Source of the DNA: Deltaproteobacteria bacterium RIFOXYA12_FULL_61_11
Lineage (GTDB): Bacteria; Bdellovibrionota_F; JAHFAK01; YA12-FULL-61-11
Direction: 5' to 3'
Assembly (NCBI GenBank): GCA_001799195.1
Contig: MGSU01000241.1
Span: forward strand, 1-7,341
Length of the DNA stretch: 7,341 nt
Position numbers and translations under genes: made by a program. Below, piece by piece: positions 1-5,564 of this stretch. The notes beneath the pieces were generated by a model. That model did no database searches. It worked only from the letters and a program-made list of their open reading frames with translations, and was not told the DNA's origin. How positions within the stretch are numbered: position 1 is the first letter of the stretch; every line of letters begins with the position of its first letter.

Positions 1-14
1 TCAGTCTTGGGTGG
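1..14 (+). repeat. Possible terminal repeat of a mobile element at the window edge
   Basis: The first 14 bases match positions 5322-5335, the left terminal inverted repeat of the 187-bp element, at 13 of 14 positions; the first 11 (TCAGTCTTGGG) are identical. The orientation is the same as the left end of that element, so an element would extend rightward into this window. No matching right end (CCCAAGACTGA) was found in the following few kilobases. This may be a solo end, a degraded copy, or the outer end of a different element with related termini. An 11-base match by chance is unlikely but not excluded in 7.3 kb. Confidence 0.35.
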
Positions 15-293
15 ATTACCGATTGTTCGGGTCACCTTAAGGACTACTAAAGCCGGACTCGGTTTCCTATGCTTGCTTGTCACGCGGCCCGCTGCCGAAA
101 CACCGCCGATCGGGGAGGCGATGGTCAGGGGCCTCGCGGGGCGCCAGCCCGCGGCGAGCGCACGGTAGCGCTTCTCCACCCAGTCCTCGCGCCTCCGGAG
201 CGCGCGCGAAGACGGCGAGGCCCGACGTCCCTCGGCTGCGCGTGCATACCGAAACGTGCGAGGACAGCATGCAGGTACTTCACTTCGGTTCCG
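15..293. other. Stretch without a recognisable gene
   Basis: No convincing gene was identified. The part from about 100 to 250 is very GC-rich. A 60-codon minus-strand frame starts with GTG at 307 and overlaps the end of the 76-aa gene by 14 nt. Its first half is protein-like, but its second half is rich in Arg, Gly and Ala in the way of an out-of-frame GC-rich reading. A different minus frame reads DWVEKRYRALAAGW at roughly 145-186 with much more GC-rich third positions. This could be a frameshifted or decaying small gene. No clear terminator hairpin with a T run is seen after the 76-aa gene. Confidence 0.3.
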
Positions 294-1138: not shown

Positions 1139-1309
1139 GTTAGACTTTGTTCTATCGTGGGTCTTCCCCCTGGGTCCTCAGTACTGCGACAATGCCATCG
1201 GTCTACTTGGAGAAAGCAAAGAAAGAACGTTGCAACCCACAACCGCGGCTTTGTTGGACGCACCTCTCCCGTCCTCGCGCGGTGCTCACAAGACTCCCGA
1301 GATGGCAGC

Positions 1310-1822
1310 TCAGTCTTTTTGCGACGCGTCGGTAGCTGCGAGTTTCCGGGCCTCGTAAAGCTCCCGGTTATGGTCTCGGACCTGCGACAGAAGATGCTCG
1401 GTGCGCGAGAGACAGTACTGTACAGATCCAAAGAAATACCGTGGCCCCACCAGGACCTCTTCGTCCCTGGCCTTGCCTTCCAAGCGCTTGGTTTCAACCA
1501 ACTCACGATAAGCCGCAGCGCGCTCGGCGTCGGTCTCACCCAAGCCCAACCAGGCCTCCGAGGTGTCGATTCGGTCGTCGCGCTCAATACCCGCGTAGTG
1601 CCTGTAGCCGCTGAAGCGGAAATGCTCCGGCCGCGTTCTTTTGGCGTAGTGCCAGCGGTTGAGAGCCAGATACGCCTGCAACCTCAGCACGGCCTCGTCC
1701 GTCTCTTCCATCACCTGGGTCTTGACGCGCAGTTCCACCACTGAACCTGTCCGGCCGATGGCATGGTTGAGCAGCTTGGCGAACGAGGTGTTCACGCTCT
1801 GCAGGAGGGATTCAGGATTCAC
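1310..1822 (-). pseudogene. 5'-truncated REP-associated tyrosine transposase (IS200-like Y1 family)
   Basis: The 170-aa frame matches the C-terminal half of REP-associated tyrosine transposases (RayT/TnpA-REP, HUH Y1 superfamily), which cut and join single-stranded DNA at hairpin repeats. The visible family pattern is LLQSVNTSFAKLLN (residues 6-19), GRTG (23-26), YLALN (51-55), then RPEHFRFSGYRHYAG (64-78) and WLGLGETDAERAAAYRELV (91-109). The N-terminal part carrying the HUH metal-binding motif is absent. The position where relatives usually carry the catalytic Tyr (S-Y-x-x-x-x-N context) appears to be Phe14. The usual NPVRAG after YLALN is replaced by RWHYAKR. The frame is the same as that of the upstream cyclase gene, with only DPF between that gene's TAG and the GTG at 1822. 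An AGGA lies 7 nt before this GTG, so a product could be made, but it could not be an active transposase. Confidence 0.62.
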
Positions 1823-1831
1823 GAACGGGTC

Positions 1832-4800
1832 CTACGTCGGCCGCTCGAGTTGGTTCAGCTTGGTCTCGAGTTTGCGGAATTCATCGACCAGTTTCTGGAA
1901 GCCGGTCCGCTCCGAGACCTCGAGACCCTCGGCGATGACCTCGCGGGCTTTCTCGAATTCACCGTCCTCGCAGTACAGCTTGGCCAGGAGGAATTTCCCT
2001 TGTGGGATCGTGCGTTTGAACTGCAACCGGTCCGCCTCGGCAATACCGCGTTCGAGCTCGGCGATGCCTTTCTGTTCTTCCAGCAGGGTATAGCTCAGGT
2101 ACCCGACGTAGAGCAGGTTGGTGACGTACCCCTCCTTCCAGCCGATCTCCTCGGACAGGGGCAGGGACTTCTCGAAGTGCGAATAGGCCTGCTCGAGGTC
2201 GTTCATCTCGTAGAACAATTCACCCATGTTGTGCAGGTTGCGGGCAATGCCGATCTTGTCGCCGATCTCCATGGCCAGCTCCAGCGCGAGCTGGTAGTAT
2301 TCCAAGGCCTTTTTGAATTTCTTCTGGAAGCCGTAGACGATACCGATATTGCCCAAGGCCTTCATCTTGAAGTGCTTGAGCATCCCATCCGCCGTCGCCT
2401 CGAGCGCTTTGTGGTAATATTCGAGAGCTTGTTTATAGTCCCCCTTGAACAGCGCGGTGGTGCCGTACCGCAACGAGAGTTCGCCGAGGAGGTGTTTATC
2501 GCCATGCCCCTCGGCCAACTTCATGGCCTCGTTCAGCTCGTTGAGCGAACGGCCGGAATCCCCCAACCGCTCGTAGGTGGCGCCGAGGAAACACCGGACT
2601 TCGATGATGATGTCCGGCTTCGAGGAGGTGACCACGGCCAAACGCAGGGCGAGGATCAAGGATTCCCTTGCTTTATCGTACTCACCTCGGTCGTACTGGA
2701 ATTTTCCCTTCCAGTACCAGCCCAGGACGTGCTCGACGGTATTCCGGCTGTCCGGCAACAGCTCGAGGGTCTTCTCGACCAGGGTCAAGCCCCGCTCGAT
2801 GGCTCCCAATTTATTGCAATTCTTGATGATCTTGAGATTGAGCTGGACCACCTTCTCCTTGATGTTGGAGCGGTCGAGGAAGACCACCCGGGTGGTCAGC
2901 GGCATGTTCTCGAGGTTCTCGTTGATCAAGGCCAGACAGCGTTCGTAGTAGTCGTTGGAACCCTGGAGCTGGTGTTCGTTGGCCAGTTTATCCCCCGAGC
3001 GCTCGCAATACTGGGTTTTCTTGTCGAGGAAATCGGTCTCCAGATAGTGATAGGCGAGGTGCTCGACGTGCTCGTCGATGCGATCGTGGAACAGTTCCTC
3101 CATGATCTTGGCGACTTCCTGGTGGATTTCCTTGAGCTTGCGCTTGAGAATGCTCTTGTAGGCGACCTCGCGCAGCAAGGTGCTGCGGAAACCGTATTCC
3201 CGGTCGCGTTCGTCCAGACCTTCCTTGACTATGCAGATCATGTCGCGCTTGAGCAGCGCCTGGATGCTGGCCTCGAGATATTCATCGTGGTTGAAGATCC
3301 GGGAGAGCAAGAGGTGGCTGAAGTTCAAGCCGACCACCGAGAAGACTTGGAGCACCCACTTGAGCTCGTCCGGTAGCTTGTCGATCCTGGCGGCAAGCAA
3401 ACCCTGGATGGTCGGGGGGATGTCCACCTCCAAGCCCTGTTCCAGGACCTGGAAGCCCCCCTCCGTGGTTCGGACGATGGACCCAGCCTCGACCATGGAC
3501 TTGATGATTTCTTCGACGAACAAGGGGTTGCCCCCGCTCTTGGACCAGATCAGGTCGAGTACGGGCTGGGAGAGCTCACAGTCCTTGAGGATGGAGTGGA
3601 CCATGGCATTGGTGTCGCCGCGGGACAGGGGCAAGAGAGGGAAGTGCGCGCTGCATTGCCGGGGAACCAGCCCGAGGGTCTCCTTGATCCGGGTGGTGTA
3701 GAGGATGAGAATTTTTTCGTTCTCGATGGATTCGAACAGGAAGCCGAGCAACTCCTCCGAAAGGGGATCGAGCCACTGACAGTCATCCAGGTAGAGCAGC
3801 AGGTGGTTGGTGCGGGACAGGTTGAGGAAGAGGGTCTTGATCGCCTGGAAGGTCAGATTCTTTTTTGCTTCCTCGTTGAAGTATTGGATGTTGCTCTCGG
3901 CGAACTTGATCGCGAACATGTTCGCGAGGATGTGTACTTCGTTGTCGTTCAGATTATAGCCCTTCAGTTTGCTCAACTTGAGCCGCAGGTCGTCCTCGCT
4001 GTCGTTGTCTTCGATCTGGACCAACTCGCGGAGAATACCGAGGAAAATGAAATAGGAGAGATTGGAGCTGTGGGAAACGCACGCTCCCCGCAAGACCTGC
4101 CATTTGTAAGGTGAGGCCTTGATCGTGTCGATCAGCTCCTCGGTGAACCGGCTCTTGCCGATGCCCGATTCCCCCGAAACGACGATGACCTGACCGCGCG
4201 ATTTGGCTACCTTGTGGATGGCTTGTTCGGCGCCGAGGAATTCCGGTTTGCGGCCTTGGAAGTCCGAGACGAGCGTGGAGAGAGGGGAAGGTCGGGCCTG
4301 GCCTTTCCGCTCGCCGAGGGCGAGGTAGCACTGGATGGGCAACTTCTTGCCCTTGACCTTGACCGGTTCCCGGGTTTCGTATTCGAAGAGACCCTCGGTT
4401 GCTTGGTAGATCTTCTCCCCGACCAGGATCTGGTTGCGTTCGGCCAACCCCTGCAAGCGCTGGGCGATGTTCACCGTGTCGCCCATCACGGTATATTCCT
4501 TGCGCATCGCCGTGCCCACGGTCCCTGTGACGACGATGCCGTAGTTGATGCCGATGGAGAGCCCGAGAGGGGAAGCCAACTGCCTGCGCCCGTTGAAGCG
4601 TTCGAGTTCTTCGAGCAATTCGAGGGAACAACGCACCGCGCGTTCGGGATCGTTCTCGTGGGCGATCGGAGCGCCGAACAAGGCCATGATGCAGTCCCCG
4701 ATGAACTTGTCGACGTACCCCTCGTACTTGTAGATGATATCAACCAACCCCTTGAAACAATTGTTCATCAGGTCCCGGACTTCCTCGGGATCGAGTTCCT

Positions 4801-5236
4801 CGGACATGGAGGTAAAACCGCTGATATCGGCGAAGATCACGGCCACGTCTTTCCGTTCGCCATCGAGCAGGGCTCGGGATTCCTGCATACGTTGTTTTAT
4901 TTCATGAGGCAGGGGTTCGCGGTATTGCCGAGGTCCTGCGACGAAGTCGTCGACGAACTCGGCCTTCGCGCCGGCCCCGATTCCTCCCGATAGCTGCCCC
5001 TCTCTAGGTTGGGAGAGGAGCTTCCCCTGGGACGGACCGCTCGGGTCCTCGGTCTGCCGAGTCCGGATTGGGCCTTCCTCACCGACACGGGTCCCACAGG
5101 AACCGCAGAATTTGGCCTGGGGCAGCACCGACTGTTGGCAGTGCTTGCATTGTTTCACCGTGCGTTGATCAAGGCCGCACTGGTGGCAGAAGTTCGTGTT
5201 CTCCGGAAGTTCGGTCTGACAGGAAGGACAACGCAT
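1832..5236 (-). CDS. Zinc-ribbon / class III adenylate-guanylate cyclase / STAND-type ATPase / TPR signalling protein
   Basis: This is an intact 1134-aa cytoplasmic signalling protein with no signal peptide or membrane segment. Residues 3-20 (CPSC...CHQC) and 30-47 (CKHC...CGSC) form two zinc ribbons. Residues about 128-305 form a class III nucleotide cyclase: metal-binding Asp137 (FADISGF) and Asp181 (FIGDCIMALFG), purine-selecting Lys177 and Asp253, and transition-state Asn256 and Arg260 (VNIAQR) are all present. This predicts an active enzyme, more likely making cAMP than cGMP. Residues about 330-640 are a P-loop ATPase of AAA/STAND type with Walker A GESGIGKS (355-362), Walker B LLLYLDDCQW (479-488) and SGGNPLFVEEI (567-577). 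Residues about 840-1120 are TPR-like helical repeats (for example GEYDKARESL, GDYKQALEYYHKAL, KKFKKALEYYQLAL). The ATPase and TPR parts probably sense a partner or load. ATG 5236 is chosen because the first zinc ribbon begins at residue 3; only a weak GAGG lies about 10 nt upstream. The partner is unknown. Confidence 0.93.
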   Translation of the reverse strand: MRCPSCQTELPENTNFCHQCGLDQRTVKQCKHCQQSVLPQAKFCGSCGTRVGEEGPIRTRQTEDPSGPSQGKLLSQPREGQLSGGIGAGAKAEFVDDFVAGPRQYREPLPHEIKQRMQESRALLDGERKDVAVIFADISGFTSMSEELDPEEVRDLMNNCFKGLVDIIYKYEGYVDKFIGDCIMALFGAPIAHENDPERAVRCSLELLEELERFNGRRQLASPLGLSIGINYGIVVTGTVGTAMRKEYTVMGDTVNIAQRLQGLAERNQILVGEKIYQATEGLFEYETREPVKVKGKKLPIQCYLALGERKGQARPSPLSTLVSDFQGRKPEFLGAEQAIHKVAKSRGQVIVVSGESGIGKSRFTEELIDTIKASPYKWQVLRGACVSHSSNLSYFIFLGILRELVQIEDNDSEDDLRLKLSKLKGYNLNDNEVHILANMFAIKFAESNIQYFNEEAKKNLTFQAIKTLFLNLSRTNHLLLYLDDCQWLDPLSEELLGFLFESIENEKILILYTTRIKETLGLVPRQCSAHFPLLPLSRGDTNAMVHSILKDCELSQPVLDLIWSKSGGNPLFVEEIIKSMVEAGSIVRTTEGGFQVLEQGLEVDIPPTIQGLLAARIDKLPDELKWVLQVFSVVGLNFSHLLLSRIFNHDEYLEASIQALLKRDMICIVKEGLDERDREYGFRSTLLREVAYKSILKRKLKEIHQEVAKIMEELFHDRIDEHVEHLAYHYLETDFLDKKTQYCERSGDKLANEHQLQGSNDYYERCLALINENLENMPLTTRVVFLDRSNIKEKVVQLNLKIIKNCNKLGAIERGLTLVEKTLELLPDSRNTVEHVLGWYWKGKFQYDRGEYDKARESLILALRLAVVTSSKPDIIIEVRCFLGATYERLGDSGRSLNELNEAMKLAEGHGDKHLLGELSLRYGTTALFKGDYKQALEYYHKALEATADGMLKHFKMKALGNIGIVYGFQKKFKKALEYYQLALELAMEIGDKIGIARNLHNMGELFYEMNDLEQAYSHFEKSLPLSEEIGWKEGYVTNLLYVGYLSYTLLEEQKGIAELERGIAEADRLQFKRTIPQGKFLLAKLYCEDGEFEKAREVIAEGLEVSERTGFQKLVDEFRKLETKLNQLERPT

Positions 5237-5265: not shown

Positions 5266-5294
5266 ATCATAACGGCCGGGTCGAGGAAAAGCAA
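5266..5294 (-). promoter_or_regulatory. Putative sigma70-type promoter of the cyclase gene
   Basis: On the minus strand, TTGCTT (5289-5294) and TATGAT (5266-5271) are separated by exactly 17 nt. The -10 box matches the consensus at 5 of 6 positions; the -35 box only at 3 of 6. The predicted transcription start is near 5259, giving a leader of about 23 nt before the ATG at 5236. It sits between the inverted-repeat element and the gene, which suggests the cyclase is transcribed independently of the lipoprotein operon. Confidence 0.42.
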
Positions 5295-5320
5295 TGTCCG
5301 AACTCTCCCGCGAGTATAAG

Positions 5321-5507
5321 TTCAGTCTTGGGGGGCGAGGGGTCCTGTCGCCTCACACCCCCACCATGCTCATGCTTGCGCCCAATGGTGCTGCATCCTG
5401 CGCACCACCTGGAGGTGTGCATCCATGCACCCACCGTGGCGGGGGTCCCCCGTCGGCGCCACCCCTACGAGGTTACTGAAACTATCAGTAATACCCCCAA
5501 GACTGAA
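5321..5507. mobile_element. MITE-like or structured element with 14-bp terminal inverted repeats
   Basis: A 187-bp intergenic segment is bounded by perfect 14-bp inverted repeats, TTCAGTCTTGGGGG at 5321-5334 and CCCCCAAGACTGAA at 5494-5507. It encodes no protein. Internal stems are GGCGA/TCGCC (5334-5338 with 5348-5352), GCAC-ACC/GGT-GTGC with one bulged C (5402-5420), GTGGCG/CGCCAC (5436-5441 with 5457-5462, enclosing a GGGG-T-CCCC palindrome), and TTACTGA/TCAGTAA (5473-5479 with 5485-5491, 5-nt loop). The size, terminal repeats and lack of coding capacity fit a miniature inverted-repeat element. A structured RNA between the two transcription units is the alternative. No abutting target duplication is obvious. 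The family of a driving transposase cannot be named from the ends alone. Confidence 0.55.
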
Positions 5508-5564
5508 TGGTTACTCCCGTGATCTCCGGGAACCGGATAGGTGACCTTCGAGTAGCGTTTCGGC

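Follow-up and report, generated by a model that had tools for sequence, protein, structure and literature searches.

The window considered here is the whole stretch of DNA that was analysed, 7,341 nucleotides of contig MGSU01000241.1 from Deltaproteobacteria bacterium RIFOXYA12_FULL_61_11. Its minus strand carries a cyclase-AAA-TPR regulator gene, for which a relative at no more than 38% identity was found, in a deltaproteobacterial MAG, and the remnant of a RAYT/Y1 transposase, of which ORF 1310-1822 shares 78% identity over 165 aa with the Y1 protein of C161 and the DNA 1256-1809 is homologous to C309. Just downstream of this remnant, a second imperfect inverted repeat of the window (CCAAGTTAGACT...GGTCTACTTGG) spans positions 1135-1212, and a minus-strand fragment at 728-1138, apparently truncated at its start, matches positions 191-238 of PF01636, where the APH phosphotransferase family has its C-terminal end. 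A short repeat, AAAGCCGGACTCGGTTTCC, lies beside a MITE end at 46-67 of the window, recurs in L141 (223-244) and L086 (174-191), and is also found downstream of the RAYT genes of C194 and C341; it may mark the 3′ side of a RAYT transposon. Between the regulator gene and the stop of the gene upstream of it (5565, minus strand) lies a short structured element, which is the subject of this report. The features of the window are the following:

5314-5514, plus strand: MITE copy, the whole element from GTATAAG to TGGTTAC, among 100 matches of covariance model CM R1 in its own genome (92 extracted)
5306-5313, no strand: left target-site duplication (TSD), TCCCGCGA, identical to 5515-5522 at 7 of 8 positions
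5515-5522, no strand: right TSD, TCCCGTGA, identical to 5306-5313 at 7 of 8 positions
5314-5334, plus strand: left terminal inverted repeat (TIR), inner 14 bp exact; family consensus GTAnnnnTTCAGTCTTGG
5494-5514, minus strand: right TIR, inner 14 bp exact; same family consensus
5339-5352, plus strand: left arm of the inner stem, GGGGTCCTGTCGCC; position 5350 covaries with 5457
5455-5465, plus strand: right arm of the inner stem, GGCGCCACCCC; position 5457 covaries with 5350
5358-5380, plus strand: 5′ half of the core hairpin, with its partner arm at 5435-5445; found in nearly all complete copies
5381-5434, minus strand (REP sense): module A, a 54-bp two-hairpin REP-like unit matched by covariance model CM R2; precisely missing from 47 core-only copies
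1-36, plus strand: second MITE copy, a right-end fragment at the contig edge, with 83-89% identity to many copies
5289-5294, minus strand: -35-like hexamer TTGCTT at offset 19 from the element end; a strict consensus scan does not call it
5266-5271, minus strand: -10-like hexamer TATGAT, spacer of 17 to the -35-like hexamer
1832-5236, minus strand: cyclase-AAA-TPR regulator gene adjoining the element (Guanylate_cyc, AAA_16 and TPR domains)
1256-1822, minus strand: RAYT/Y1 transposase remnant lacking the N-terminal catalytic part, with no unit at its 3′ end

An earlier note, made from the sequence alone, had described a 187-bp element with perfect 14-bp inverted ends. Those repeats are indeed exact, at 5321-5334 (TTCAGTCTTGGGGG) and 5494-5507 (CCCCCAAGACTGAA), and simple arithmetic gives about 0.006 chance pairs of 14 bp at most 200 bp apart in the 7.3-kb window. 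The full element is longer, because comparison with other copies and an 8-bp duplication fix its limits 7 bp further outwards at each end, at 5314-5514 (201 bp), with the ends GTATAAG-TTCAGTCTTGG.../...CCAAGACTGAA-TGGTTAC. Instead of the four separate stem-loops first proposed, the core forms a nested palindrome, in which the TIR stem is followed by GGGGTCCTGTCGCC/GGCGCCACCCC and then by CCCCCACC...GTGGCGGGGG, giving one long nested stem that ends in an apical hairpin and into which the 54-bp two-hairpin unit is inserted. The ORFs that cross the element (61-95 aa) are mechanical and the one that was tested had no Pfam match. The location between an operon end and a promoter was also correctly described, as the element is flanked by the upstream gene stop on one side and, on the other, by the promoter-like pair 5289-5294/5266-5271, a putative promoter leading to the adenylate-cyclase-type regulator gene that starts at 5236.

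The host assembly is a fragmented MAG of 4.64 Mb in 342 contigs, 87% complete, and the copy numbers given here are based on genome searches and retrieved stretches. Allowing at most one mismatch, the terminal motif occurs 128 times in this genome, against 1 for a reversed-pattern control; BLAST of the element returned 83 pieces, and CM R1, built from 25 copies, gave the 100 matches mentioned above, which amount to about 90 copies. Many contigs of the assembly terminate within copies. The 8-bp flanks match at 7-8 of 8 positions in 24 of 89 copies, versus 0.26 expected from shuffled pairing, and flank identity has a sharp maximum at k=8. In some subfamilies the ends are longer (e.g. GTATGGCTTCAG...), and extended-end copies, once re-anchored, give exact 8-bp duplications (CAACTCCG in C269, GATTGCCC in C315). 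The element thus combines terminal inverted repeats, a target-site duplication and dispersed, multiple, short non-coding copies, and there is strong support for its being a MITE; with TIRs and 8-bp duplications in about 90 copies, it is therefore one moved by a DDE-type transposase. A MITE family had been among the guesses of the earlier note, to be checked by BLASTN against the host and a search for flanking duplications, with a single copy conserved in place as the outcome that would argue against mobility; both searches bore the guess out, and with a multi-copy family mobility stands. Searches of 40 sampled genomes outside the host, of the sole other genome of the phylum that was compared, and of viral contigs, plasmids and phages found no copy. 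The MITE ends of C125 and C155, together with an end in C253 (L141), have a common flank, GATGCYCGGAACYGGGCGYGGTATC, which suggests that the MITE landed in, or travelled with, another repeat.

An autonomous element with matching ends is the usual companion of a MITE, without being a strict requirement. Such a partner would carry GTAnnCCTTCAG ends; a search by TIR pattern found none in the 87% complete, fragmented assembly, the extended-end motif AGAGCCAGGGAACA gave 44 matches versus 38 in the control and nothing beyond MITE ends, and no transposase was found near other candidate ends. The IS66 family, with its GTAA ends and 8-bp duplication, was also considered as a parent. The element may resemble it in its ends, which begin GTAa/t, and in its duplication of 8 bp, whereas the only full IS66 transposase of the genome lacks the ends of the element and no TIR is shared with an IS66-type transposase locus in the host assembly; IS66 parentage was set aside as unsupported.

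The copies fall into several classes, namely 47 with the core only, 20 with a module B, 2 with module A (the window copy included) and 7 with both, the rest being truncated or incomplete. Modules A and B are homologous 54-bp two-hairpin units which, in the minus-strand sense, begin with a GTGG-like tag (GTGG, GTGA or GCGA) and then form a hairpin whose GGA loop is conserved; in this foot hairpin 97.5% of cells are paired, and its two outer pairs covary across copies. The unit model CM R2, built with the window unit among others (match C241:5381-5434), detects 100 places in the host genome, and more than 25 of these lie outside the MITE. In C194, C35, C104, C199, C306 and C56, Y1/RAYT genes or gene fragments have units at their 3′ ends, so that module 5381-5434 is homologous to sequences physically linked to Y1 genes of the host, and units also form tandem arrays in C287 and C268. 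A further unit, C, lies inside two MITE copies (C329 and C252), after GCGCCAC, with 52 of its 54 positions shared with free units. On the other hand, some RAYT paralogues are unit-free, such as those of C161, C141, C25, C341 and the window remnant 1310-1822, and these and the 47 core-only MITE copies serve as empty sites.

Some loci illustrate the diversity of these units. The Y1 ORF of C194 (L160; 311 aa) contains two 54-bp units in frame, of 18 codons each, at its C-terminal end. In C287 (L198), unit arrays occur at 870-977, 1683-1848 and 3438-3545, and many of the units, probably a second subfamily, have GTCAC instead of GCCAC ends. Finally, mosaic loci at L156 727-900 (C309) and L148 1011-1200 (C34) join half a MITE core with RAYT 3′-end sequence and REP-like units, and that of C309 has a different inverted end, CCGAAGTCCAA.

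The earlier note had also considered a REP-like element and, as a hunch, a link with the transposase remnant, and both ideas survive for the insert only. The 54-bp unit 5381-5434 is homologous to units at RAYT 3′ ends and is therefore, in the window copy, a passenger from a system of the RAYT-remnant type; the remnant in the window, 3.5 kb away, is itself unit-free, and a functional link with it would be speculative. Y1 transposases generate no TSD. The whole element has one of 8 bp and is therefore not REP-like, nor does the MITE move as a REP does. The linkage of units to Y1 genes, the tandem arrays and the absence of a TSD lead us to infer that a Y1 enzyme would have placed the unit. That the entire element is a REP/BIME-like repeat spread by RAYT (Y1, single-strand) transposases would accord with at least 12 host Y1 genes over the Pfam cut-off and with the match between modules and RAYT 3′-end units, yet it conflicts with the 8-bp target duplications and DDE-like inverted ends, which already refute its whole-element version, and with the 47 copies that lack any unit; we regard it as extremely improbable. 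The reverse history, in which the original form had the modules and the precise loss of 54-bp units gave rise to the short copies, draws on the presence of A and B in both inner-stem classes, G-C and A-T. This seems to us rather improbable, given that 47 copies lack both units with exact junctions, that the same unit type is present in some RAYT paralogues and absent from others, and that unit C occurs in only two MITE copies while agreeing with free units at nearly every position.

The strong fold raises the question of a function as RNA, which was another of the initial guesses. The element folds far better than its shuffled versions, as RNA (z of -5.0 and -4.9 for the two strands) and as DNA (z of -5.7). 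In the alignment of copies, the internal pair 5350/5457 is G-C in 48, A-T in 28 and mismatched in 1, and one TIR position covaries (C/C in 26, T/T in 5); apart from these, RNAalifold detects little covariation, the core being nearly invariant. Compensatory change, which the earlier note had proposed to look for, was thus seen at one internal pair and one TIR position, but it does not single out an RNA element, since a palindromic DNA transposon would yield an equal signal. A structured RNA kept by selection, either as a 3′-UTR hairpin or attenuator or as a CsrA decoy through minus-strand GGA loops, would be in line with the folding, the compensatory internal pair, the GGA loops of the modules and the csrA gene of the host genome. 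However, the core loop is free to vary at the GGA site (CATGCTTG in 37 copies, CATCCTTG in 36, also other bases), modules are missing from 47 copies, the conserved loops are accounted for by REP-type recognition, and no Rfam family matched the element at gathering score, all of which leaves this explanation very improbable. The reading as a CsrA sponge was rejected as the main one because the core GGA site varies and the short copies lack the modules.

A last question is where the MITE inserts. Element copies tend to sit at a fixed distance, 20 bp, upstream of predicted gene promoters. Exact TTGAC is found at an outward offset of 19 in 15 of 172 flanks, versus 0.28 per position elsewhere (P ~1e-21 to 4e-21; P ~5e-25 against the genomic TTGAC rate), and TTGACA with at most one mismatch in 18 flanks at offset 19 and 6 or 7 at offset 20, compared with about 0.6 at other offsets. 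The 17 flanks with TTGAC at 19 or 20 have pairwise identities of at most 52%. As the -35 motif had been noticed by eye ahead of testing, the -10 box was used as an independent check: it follows with a spacer of 17 in 8 of the 17 TTGAC flanks, and among the 147 flanks without a -35 match TA...T appears at offsets 42-43 in 10 and 8, versus 0.96 elsewhere. Reading the flanks inwards gave no promoter-offset peak. At a moderate threshold, a sigma-70-type promoter, in all cases a prediction from sequence, stands at offset 19-20 in 48 of 92 copies against a background of 4.6, counting the window copy with its weak -35; about half of the copies have no promoter at the right offset. The fitting promoters lie on either end of the element (29 left, 25 right) and in both orientations. 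Moreover, the fit is better in copies with a recognisable TSD (26 of 38) than in those without (20 of 51; Fisher P 0.006), which is what a spacing set at insertion would predict. With genes called by a simple codon-score caller, none of the 76 copies with enough flank lies inside a called gene; 36 are placed between divergent, 33 between tandem and 2 between convergent genes. Convergent gaps are mildly avoided (2 of 71 versus 11.6% of intergenic bases, P 0.008), and with this background share measured the placement bias alone is modest and not the main evidence. By these statistics the target that becomes duplicated lies some 12 bp on the upstream side of the predicted -35 hexamer, at about -55 to -48 relative to the putative transcription start. 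This zone is the upstream margin of the stretch that RNA polymerase holoenzyme covers together with its alpha C-terminal domains.

Promoter-targeted insertion is the best reading of this spacing, and selection for the spacing its main rival. The latter supposes that insertions were scattered across intergenic DNA and that those at a fixed spacing upstream of -35 boxes were retained, the TIR or a protein bound to it improving or insulating the promoter. The spacing does fall in a zone in which helical phase is important, that of UP elements and activators, and with the same TIR on both ends either orientation could work, as the similar numbers on the left and right would allow. Nevertheless, the better fit is that of the copies whose TSD is recognisable and hence younger, whereas slow retention would give the reverse; the peak is only one or two bases wide; and copies are scarce in neutral convergent gaps. 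The narrow peak and the better fit of the TSD-bearing copies speak against selection, which we consider unlikely.

Taken as a whole, a MITE moved by a DDE-type transposase, with promoter-guided insertion and, in the window copy, a separate REP-like passenger unit, is the account that we consider likely. A DDE-type transposase would act on GTAnnnnTTCAGTCTTGG ends and cut the target with an 8-bp stagger; its guide would be either RNA polymerase in complex with the promoter or a bend or opening of the DNA at the promoter's upstream margin. The 54-bp units occupy fixed internal sites in many MITE copies; a Y1 transposase would have put the unit in once per site, after which the unit would have spread as a passenger of the MITE. 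We put at about even the chance of a wider reading, that the transposase recognises the polymerase-promoter complex (or the distal UP-element region occupied by it) and integrates at a fixed position near -50, with the MITE as a landing site for the REP/RAYT system and nested repeats of two mechanisms as the result.

Bacterial MITEs are usually described simply as intergenic, a placement that purifying selection alone could explain. An insertion peak 1-2 bases wide with respect to the -35 box, at dozens of unrelated sites, points to a direct coupling of transposition with the transcription machinery; if promoter targeting is true, the MITE copies would offer a promoter map for an uncultured phylum. 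In turn, REP units that land inside another mobile element with many unit-free empty sites would help to test the spread of REPs by RAYTs.

The family is similar to other bacterial MITEs, such as Correia/NEMIS, ERIC, RUP, MITEAba12 and BrickBuilt (PMC10969869), in being short, non-coding, intergenic and multi-copy, bounded by TIRs, flanked by TSDs and strongly folding. A review of prokaryotic MITEs (PMC10969869) reports an intergenic preference and promoters inside elements, and no fixed spacing to a host promoter; the present family differs in this fixed spacing and, as far as could be searched, has no sequence family in common with them. Like the BOX elements of Streptococcus (PMC3049150), it has fixed outer modules and an optional internal hairpin module, but boxB occurs in tandem, whereas the modules described here lie at separate fixed sites and match RAYT 3′-end units. 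The inserted unit shares with REP/REPIN-RAYT systems (PMC2817692, PMC3116915, PMC8266576) a hairpin pair, a tetranucleotide-like tag, a link to Y1 genes, tandem copies and the lack of a TSD; unlike them, its tag is mostly GTGG, GTGA or GCGA, not GTAG, and its units are found within a DDE-type MITE as well as at RAYT 3′ ends, where they have a direct order and, in C194, are in frame. REP dimers (GTAG/CGTC) within longer palindromes are reported from Anabaena and Halothiobacillus, where no unit-free palindromes were found (PMC3733652), in contrast with the 47 unit-free copies of this family and its host palindrome with TSDs. In the light of these hallmarks and of the known context, we class the family as a MITE, one that combines two features not found described together. 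The open-access literature searched holds no precedent for fixed-distance promoter-targeted transposition in bacteria, a search result that is no proof of absence. Finally, the yeast Ty elements undergo promoter-guided integration, of which the fixed-position insertion near -50 is proposed as a bacterial counterpart.
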